Positions 11,844-13,216 of a DNA stretch of 21,366 bases are shown here, piece after piece; the stretch's first letter is position 1; each line of letters starts with the position of its first letter. Location of the stretch: IMG/VR virus record IMGVR_UViG_3300022871_000138, positions 1 to 21,366 of that record; one strand, written 5' to 3'. Source of the stretch: a virus. Below the pieces are notes generated by a model. It searched no databases and was not told the origin of the DNA. It saw only the letters and a list, made by a program, of their open reading frames with translations. The translations under genes and the position numbers were made by a program.

Positions 11844-12023
11844 ATGTTACGCTTAAGACGTAAGAAACTTTGCTCTGGTAAATGTGACTGTTGCTTTAAT
11901 GAGGCAAACATACCTTATAAAGGCGGTCAGTATTGCTATAAATGTTTCAATGCAATTTGGTATTATGTAATGGAGGGCGAAAATGACAAAAAAGAAAAGG
12001 AGAAAGACCAAGAAGAATCATAA
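11844..12023 (+). CDS. Small Cys-rich putative zinc-binding protein
   Basis: I chose the ATG at 11844 rather than 11778 because AAAGGAG (11833-11839) sits 4 bases before it, a canonical ribosome-binding site. The Cys-rich part also begins only after this start. The 59-aa product is basic at first (RLRRKK), then has Cys at 10, 14, 16, 17, 31 and 34 (CSGKCDCC ... YCYKC), consistent with a treble-clef or zinc-ribbon fold. It ends in a very charged tail (NDKKEKEKDQEES). The last 41 bases overlap the HNH gene in another frame. Function unknown; it may act with the HNH protein. Confidence 0.6.
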   Translation: MLRLRRKKLCSGKCDCCFNEANIPYKGGQYCYKCFNAIWYYVMEGENDKKEKEKDQEES

Positions 12024-12231
12024 GAGTAGACATCACATTTTACCAAATTCAAGAGGTGGTAACTCTTCTGATGCCAATATCAAGGTCTTAAACGCGAATG
12101 AACACCAGAACTACCACACACTTTTCAGTAATTTGACACCCGATGAAATTATTGTTGAGTTGGTAGAACACTTCTGGAATGGACAAATTCACTGGGTATA
12201 CAAAGCGTTAAGGAGATTAAACGAACTATAA
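11983..12231 (+). CDS. Minimal HNH-family nuclease-like protein
   Basis: The 82-aa protein contains a compact HNH core: SRHHILPNSRGG (His17, His18), DANIKVLNANEH (Asn32, His41) and NYHTLF (His45). This is the H-H-I--SRGG-----N---L----H---H pattern of small phage HNH proteins. The first 14 residues are strongly basic, compatible with DNA binding. No Cys-x2-Cys zinc pairs flank the core. A good SD (GGAGG about 6 bases before ATG) supports the start. Small HNH proteins may be homing-type nickases, packaging-associated nucleases or inactive relatives. It sits directly before a strongly structured, apparently non-coding region. Confidence 0.75.
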   Translation: MTKKKRRKTKKNHKSRHHILPNSRGGNSSDANIKVLNANEHQNYHTLFSNLTPDEIIVELVEHFWNGQIHWVYKALRRLNEL

Positions 12232-12244
12232 ATGGAGGCAAGAA

Positions 12245-12349
12245 ATGACTGAAATGGGAGCTGAACCTAGCTCCCAAATCCTCTCTAGCCGTCAGTTATG
12301 TCCCCTATTAAAACAAGTTAGTATACATTTGAACCTAAATGTATACTAA
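12245..12349 (+). CDS. 34-codon frame with strong SD inside the structured region (possible leader peptide)
   Basis: GGAGG at 12234-12238 lies 6 bases before this ATG, as good a ribosome-binding site as those of the two genes before it. The frame reads MTEMGAEPSSQILSSRQLCP... and stops at 12347-12349, inside the right arm of the second perfect hairpin. The codons run through both hairpins, so the peptide sequence is constrained by RNA structure rather than protein function. A leader peptide whose translation alters folding is plausible. Also possible is that only the ATG is meaningful and the frame downstream is non-coding. Confidence 0.35.
   Translation: MTEMGAEPSSQILSSRQLCPLLKQVSIHLNLNVY
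12255..12276. repeat. Perfect inverted repeat A, 8-bp stem, loop GAACCT
   Basis: TGGGAGCT and AGCTCCCA flank GAACCT. It is the most G/C-rich stem in the area and stands out against the A/T-rich background. Confidence 0.9.
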
Positions 12350-12351
12350 CT
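12316..12351. repeat. Perfect inverted repeat B, 15-bp stem, loop GAACCT
   Basis: The arm AGTTAGTATACATTT is followed by GAACCT and its exact complement AAATGTATACTAACT. It has no T-tract after it, so it is not a typical intrinsic terminator. The loop is identical to that of inverted repeat A. Confidence 0.95.
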
Positions 12352-12408
12352 AAGGATTTAGTACACCTAAGCTAGCTAATACATAACTAGTGGACGGATA
12401 ACAATTAA

Positions 12409-12555
12409 AAAAAGCTTATTAAAACTTTTAAAAAGGTTTTACCATGGATAATAGCTTTATTGATATTATTCTTAGCCGTTAAGATTGTTAAAAGTGTCAA
12501 CTCTATAGAAATGGAGCAAAGATGTTGGGATTGTGCTGTAAATTTTAATTATTAA
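12409..12555 (+). pseudogene. Open frame for a one-TM protein lacking a start codon (decapitated gene or unusual expression)
   Basis: From a TAA at 12406 the frame stays open to 12555. It encodes a basic head (KKLIKTFKKV), a hydrophobic segment (LPWIIALLILFLAVKIV) and a polar tail with QRCWDCAVNFNY, which looks like a genuine small membrane protein. The only in-frame ATG is at 12511, after the hydrophobic segment. Other options are ATT at 12418 or TTG at 12460 inside the segment, with no SD. Seven A residues (12407-12413) sit at the upstream end. The gene may have lost its start when the structured element or cassette inserted, or the start may be supplied by recoding or RNA processing. It lies just before the endolysin gene, so a lysis role is possible. 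Confidence 0.45.
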
Positions 12556-12564
12556 AGTATAAAT

Positions 12565-13008
12565 ATGATTCATTTATCACAACGTGATGAAAAATGGGCA
12601 TGGAAAAAAATAGGTAAAACTAATTCTTATGTTAAAGATTTTGGTTGCACTATTACTTGTATTTCAATGCTATCTGATTGGTATGGTAAATACCGAAATC
12701 CAGCTTGGATGGCAAAAAACTTGAGATATGTAAGAGATCTGTTAATCTGGAAAAGTGTTACTGAAAAATTAAACTTTGAATTTGTTTGGCGCTTCTACAA
12801 GTATGAAGAAAATAGAATATTAAAAGCGCTGAAAGGTAAAAAAACTGCATGTGTTTTGCAGATTAAAGGTCGACATTGGGTAGTCGGTGTAAGGAAGAGT
12901 ATTTATCCTTGGAGTAGATGGTTCAAAACTGTTGATCCTTGGACAGGCAGATATAAGTGGTATCATAAAAATGATATTACTGGAGGAGCTACTTTTATTA
13001 AAGACTAA
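12565..13008 (+). CDS. C39-like cysteine peptidase, probable endolysin
   Basis: This 147-aa protein matches the peptidase C39-like (papain-fold) family used by phages and bacteria to cut peptide cross-links or signal peptides. LSQRDEKWAWKKIG is the typical start. The nucleophile is Cys28 in FGCTITCISML, the histidine is His104 in KGRHWVVGV, and the third residue is Asp124 in KTVDPWTG. There is no signal peptide or cell-wall-binding domain, so export would need a holin. It is followed 10 bases later by a small hydrophobic protein, which suits a lysis pair. The leader is A/T-only. The role as a peptidoglycan hydrolase rests on context; the fold call is firm. Confidence 0.8.
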   Translation: MIHLSQRDEKWAWKKIGKTNSYVKDFGCTITCISMLSDWYGKYRNPAWMAKNLRYVRDLLIWKSVTEKLNFEFVWRFYKYEENRILKALKGKKTACVLQIKGRHWVVGVRKSIYPWSRWFKTVDPWTGRYKWYHKNDITGGATFIKD

Positions 13009-13018
13009 AAATACGATT

Positions 13019-13180
13019 ATGAACAAAGCAATCGAAGCTGCATTAGCTGCTTCTGTACTGTTATCTACTACTGGAGGTTTTCTAGTAGTAGAAGGTAGAG
13101 TATGGGAAGGAATGGCTTGTATTATTCTTGGAGCCGGATTAATTTTCGCTCGAGGTTACTTGAAATTCACACCTAAATAA
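13019..13180 (+). CDS. Small two-TM membrane protein, holin candidate
   Basis: The ATG at 13019 gives a 53-aa protein with two hydrophobic stretches (AALAASVLLSTTGGFLVV and GMACIILGAGLIFARGYL) split by a charged EGRVWEG turn, and a basic C-terminus (KFTPK). Size, topology and position immediately after the probable endolysin fit a class II-like holin. An upstream ATG at 12932 would run through the peptidase gene and is not credible. This is the last + strand gene before the terminator. Confidence 0.6.
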   Translation: MNKAIEAALAASVLLSTTGGFLVVEGRVWEGMACIILGAGLIFARGYLKFTPK

Positions 13181-13186
13181 TATATG

Positions 13187-13216
13187 ATAAAAAGACCATT
13201 TATATGGTCTTTTTAT
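13187..13216. terminator. Perfect bidirectional intrinsic terminator between convergent gene blocks
   Basis: ATAAAAAGACCAT (13187-13199) pairs perfectly with ATGGTCTTTTTAT (13204-13216) around TTAT. The A-run before and T-run after the GACCA/TGGTC core serve as the T-tract in either direction. It lies 6 bases after the holin-like gene's stop and 5 bases from the stop of the convergent gene. Confidence 0.9.

Follow-up and report, generated by a model that had tools for sequence, protein, structure and literature searches.

Two hairpins with an identical GAACCT loop in a structured gap before lysis-type genes of an uncultured tailed phage

The candidate RNA TwoAYGGAY consists of two hairpins with the same loop sequence, AYGGAY. 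In the CsrB/RsmZ sponge RNAs, several stems show one GGA-containing loop motif to one RNA-binding protein. Transcripts of T7-type phages carry stable intergenic RNase III hairpins within the operon, and the packaging RNA (pRNA) of phi29 has an AACC loop sequence. TwoAYGGAY was listed for the human gut, gammaproteobacteria, and clostridia (Weinberg et al. 2010, PMC2864571). The element described here lies at 12245–12397 on the + strand of a 21,366-base virus record from an uncultured tailed phage (the window, i.e., the whole stretch of DNA that was analysed). It resembles TwoAYGGAY in having two hairpins with one loop sequence, but the loop is GAACCT instead of AYGGAY, Rfam gives no match, and the taxa listed for TwoAYGGAY are not this phage group. 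It also resembles CsrB/RsmZ in that different stems present one loop; in contrast to those RNAs, again without an Rfam match, both window loops are GAACCT and lack the GGA expected in the hairpin loops of a CsrA/RsmA-binding sponge. As in T7-type transcripts, stable hairpins stand between genes of a phage operon, but identical loops are not a known feature of RNase III hairpins; a literature search on RNase III intergenic hairpins found nothing specific. The AACC of phi29 pRNA is present in the window loops, and a related contig (L012) has two arms with complementary loops, but the two GAACCT loops are not complementary to each other. Ordinary large terminases were found in six related records, the window being a fragment without a terminase match, and a phi29-type pRNA was rejected on the grounds of these terminases and the absence of kissing loops. 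Rfam 15 returned no match at the gathering score in the window or in the relatives L001–L003, and a lax search of 12150–12600 gave nothing but sub-threshold miRNA-like and sRNA scores, in agreement with the preliminary description, which knew of no matching class. Because there is no Rfam match and the loop sequences differ from those of TwoAYGGAY and CsrB/RsmZ, we do not claim membership in a named RNA family.

According to the ORF list, the structural genes run from left to right and are followed by a run of small genes and then by a lysis-type cassette, while replication and nucleotide genes form a convergent block that enters from the right side of the window. The element is flanked by an HNH homing-endonuclease-like small protein gene (11983–12231, + strand; phrog_655, E = 3e-6) and by the small-membrane-protein and other lysis-type genes. 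The latter, all on the + strand, encode a small membrane protein (12418–12555), a C39-like peptidase that is probably the endolysin (12565–13008), and a holin-like two-helix membrane protein (13019–13180), whose character was judged from sequence alone. The peptidase is 43–56% identical to those of its relatives, four out of five of which hit Peptidase_C39_2 with a best E of 8e-6.

Hairpin 1 (12255–12276, + strand; TGGGAGCT-GAACCT-AGCTCCCA) has eight perfect, GC-rich pairs with pairing probabilities of 0.95–1.0, and hairpin 2 (12316–12351, + strand; AGTTAGTATACATTT-GAACCT-AAATGTATACTAACT) has 15 perfect pairs with pairing probabilities of 0.92–1.0. The stems differ from each other. The loop together with its closing pair, TGAACCTA, is found at 12262–12269 and 12330–12337 on the + strand; these are its only copies in the whole window, and both are hairpin loops with a T-A closing pair, exactly as in the preliminary description. 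We compared the window with 60 dinucleotide-preserving shuffles of its entire length. Hairpin 2 is the longest perfect hairpin in the window, and its 15-bp stem exceeds the longest in the shuffles (14 bp, the next being 11 bp). Hairpin 1 is unremarkable by length, as the window contains 10 hairpins of at least 7 bp versus 11.7 expected from the shuffles. Neighbouring hairpins with an identical loop occurred in none of the 60 shuffles and nowhere else in 275 kb of related phage records, which bears out the earlier view that the loop identity is unlikely to be due to chance. Hence, the 15-bp stem and the repeated loop are what stands out beyond chance. The region 12228–12420 folds with a z-score of −5.7, none of 200 shuffles being as stable, and it is among the two most structured stretches in the window; the claim of a structured, probably functional intergenic element is thereby backed. 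An intrinsic terminator was rejected, as no T run follows the stem on the + strand; hairpin 2 qualifies weakly as a terminator, on the − strand only.

The preliminary description further proposed two mutually exclusive folds, one of which hides a start codon. Every complementarity it named is present: ATGACTGA (12245–12252) can pair with TCAGTTAT (12292–12299), including one G-T pair, AGTTATGT (12294–12301) with ACATAACT (12381–12388), and CCGTC (12289–12293) with GACGG (12393–12397). The last two combine into a 13-pair bulged long-range helix on the + strand, with CCGTC and AGTTATGT on its 5′ strand (12289–12301) and ACATAACT, an AGTG bulge, and GACGG on its 3′ strand (12381–12397). The start codon, ATG at 12245, does have a strong Shine-Dalgarno (SD)-like sequence, GGAGG at 12234–12238 (12234–12247 with the ATG, + strand). 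The corresponding two-state leader-peptide switch, or attenuator, in which the first fold would hide this ATG and the second would free it, draws on these complementarities and on the strength of this SD, most genes of the phage lacking one. The best fold pairs GGAGG via an interrupted helix, and enforcing the long-range helix costs 2.3 kcal/mol relative to the overall best fold, so alternative folds are possible, as for most RNAs of this length. Yet the competing helices are at chance level. Against shuffled linkers, the long-range helix has p = 0.23 and the best helix between the 5′ leader and the middle linker has p = 0.16. When the hairpins were fixed and the rest was shuffled, the observed −52.5 kcal/mol was average (mean −51.6, p = 0.37). 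For the helix hiding the start codon, the pairing probability is about 0.01 (a population of about 1%), and for the alternative helix it is about 0.03. As the extra helices are no better than those of shuffled sequence and the start-codon helix is almost unpopulated, the gating of the start codon by exclusive folds is unsupported. The ATG opens a 34-codon ORF (MTEMGAEPSSQILSSRQLCPLLKQVSIHLNLNVY; 12245–12349, + strand) that spans both hairpins and ends with a stop inside the second stem; a ribosome translating it would therefore unwind both hairpins, which also argues against the switch. Taken with these data, the switch is very unlikely. The coding status of the ORF is uncertain, its codon score being low and that of the HNH-like neighbour equally low. 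A pseudoknot between AAATCCT and AGGATTT (about 12277–12283 and 12354–12360) was tried and rejected, as enforcing it gives −35.9 kcal/mol versus −52.5 kcal/mol for the best fold.

In 50,697 phage records there was no DNA match, nor was there a protein match to the peptidase. Protein-guided scans of viral contigs detected relatives of the peptidase (L001/L002, L012, L015, L016, L031, and L032) and of the tail proteins (L003 and L006–L011). The element had no close homologue in viral contigs, genome contigs, or phage records, and no host prophages were found in the genome contigs. The untranslated gaps preceding the lysis genes are strongly folded in L012 (z = −6.7), L015 (−5.0), L001 (−4.3), and L003 (−4.5), with none of 200 shuffles as stable in each case, and more weakly in L031 (z = −2.5). 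Such a structured gap is absent before the lysis genes of L016 and L032, which both have the peptidase gene. Thus, five related contigs have a structured pre-lysis gap and two relatives do not, and the window, with its structured untranslated gap directly before lysis-type genes, belongs to what may be called, as a descriptive group, lysis-cassette leaders. The gaps of the relatives differ in sequence from the window element. The leaders gave no useful DNA alignment (p = 0.28 for L012; the best other was L001 with p = 0.07), and apart from L012 their loops are unlike those of the window. At the place matching the window element, the first hairpin of L012 reads GGGAGAA-A-CAC-GAATCT-GTG-C-TTCTCCC followed by CATCCT, to be compared with GGGAGCT-GAACCT-AGCTCCC followed by AAATCCT in the window. 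The stem base, the loop, and the following bases are suggestive of a relationship between the two hairpins and lend the window loop weak support from outside, although the resemblance was noticed post hoc and the overall alignment is not significant (p = 0.28). A hairpin-pattern scan of all viral contigs gave 26 matches, among which the full hairpin with the exact loop position is confined to the contig of L012 and to L050. In L050, an unrelated phage, GAACCT sits on a GGGAG stem amid GC-rich, siphophage-like head genes; this match is probably a coincidence, and its presence there means that such a hairpin can arise elsewhere.

The position, the stability, and the identity of the two loops are established. 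We put a probability of about 0.4 on the reading that the element is a cis-acting RNA leader of the lysis cassette, composed of two independent hairpins without a bistable switch, with the shared loop possibly bound by a factor. The hairpins would fold independently in the late transcript, within the interval that separates the last accessory gene from the membrane-protein, C39-peptidase, and holin genes. Acting presumably at the RNA level, they may set apart the lysis portion of the transcript, protect it, or control its expression, and the identical G-AACC-U loops could be read by one factor, either an RNA-binding protein or a complementary RNA. The z-score of −5.7, the loop identity, the site directly before lysis-type genes, the structured gaps in relatives, and the GAATCT hairpin of L012 argue for such a leader, whereas the failure of the relatives’ leaders to align with the window and the lack of a structured gap in L016 and L032 argue against it. 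It is rather unlikely that the hairpins are plain intergenic ones that stabilise the mRNA or serve RNase III-type processing in the late transcript, with a functionless loop whose identity is coincidental or a remnant. Such hairpins would fit the fact that the relatives have structured gaps in this location whose sequences are unrelated, and that the window has another tandem hairpin pair with unlike loops at 1735–1840, but 6-nt loops that are identical and share one closing pair are absent from shuffles and relatives. Going beyond the leader reading, the element might be a phage regulatory RNA of a kind not yet described, whose two unrelated stems show G-AACC-U to a single factor, from the phage or the host, that controls when the lysis genes are expressed, within a wider phage group each having a structured lysis leader; we regard this as quite unlikely. 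Should the shared loop serve as a binding site, a regulator of phage lysis that reads the loop would exist and could be retrieved with the hairpin as bait; otherwise, the element is an ordinary intergenic hairpin pair. Lysis leaders would be worth searching for new phage RNA regulation, given that structured pre-lysis gaps recur in several leaders that look unrelated. The structure is real and of an ordinary kind; what makes it worth attention is that the loop is repeated and that structured gaps recur ahead of lysis genes.

Two further alternatives concern the palindromes as DNA and the loops as antisense sequences. The element might act as DNA, its palindromes forming cruciforms or single-strand hairpins that are, for instance, sites for the neighbouring HNH-type endonuclease, a recombinase, or a replication protein. 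The two palindromes with an identical spacer do adjoin the HNH homing-endonuclease-like gene. However, we found neither a target duplication nor a second copy or an empty site, the element having one copy in the genome fragment, and the structured gaps at this place in relatives, including that of L015, which also adjoins an HNH-like gene, have different sequences, which makes a DNA element improbable. The loops could also pair in cis with AGGTTT at 12434–12439, within the first part of the membrane-protein gene, and so curb translation of that gene, following a c4-like antisense logic. GAACCT and AGGTTT can form six pairs (one of them G-U) at a distance of about 100 nt, but AGGTTT occurs 12 times on the + strand, so we estimate that it would be found within 100 nt downstream by chance in about 6% of cases; cis pairing is thus highly improbable.

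The ORF of the small membrane protein has no ATG, GTG, or TTG ahead of its membrane segment and probably starts at an ATT. The L001 membrane ORF (4859) likewise has none of the three codons before the membrane segment. All four phages (the window, L001 4859, L012 3590, and L015 3860) have an ATT at the corresponding N-terminal position, with later GTG/ATG codons also present in the L012 and L015 ORFs. This suggests that a lysis gene is started at AUU, which is rare; a literature search on AUU-start lysis genes found nothing specific. We also considered that a translational bypass or an intron might connect the 34-codon ORF with the start-less membrane ORF, but rejected this in favour of the ATT start, which is simpler because the membrane ORFs of L001 and L012 also lack a canonical start at the N-terminus and do not have this upstream arrangement. 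GGAG-type SD motifs are found at the starts 11508, 11844, 11983, and 12245, and the other genes of the window mostly have A-rich leaders without SD; in this largely SD-less phage, these four starts form an island with SD motifs.

Several other structures were observed in the relatives and the window. L012 3298–3362, before the lysis cassette, has a three-way-junction-like fold closed by AAAATTAAAC/GTTTAATTTT, and its two arms with complementary loops carry GAATCT and AGATT. L031 430–540 (also L073 18172–18210) contains two hairpins in tandem, which have 11 and 15 perfect pairs and the loops TTCGT and AACCCTGAG, and an upstream GGGTT is complementary to the AACCC loop. L003 13200–13500 is a long, strongly folded non-coding stretch with several hairpins, located between a small gene and the region preceding the amidase lysis genes. 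In the window, the two tandem stable hairpins at 1735–1840 (z = −6.7) lie between two structural genes, and the second loop repeats GTAGAGT, the 3′ arm of the first hairpin, so that ACTCTAC could pair with either. Between the two convergent gene blocks, a 13-bp hairpin at 13187–13216 that is bordered by A and T runs is probably a bidirectional terminator.
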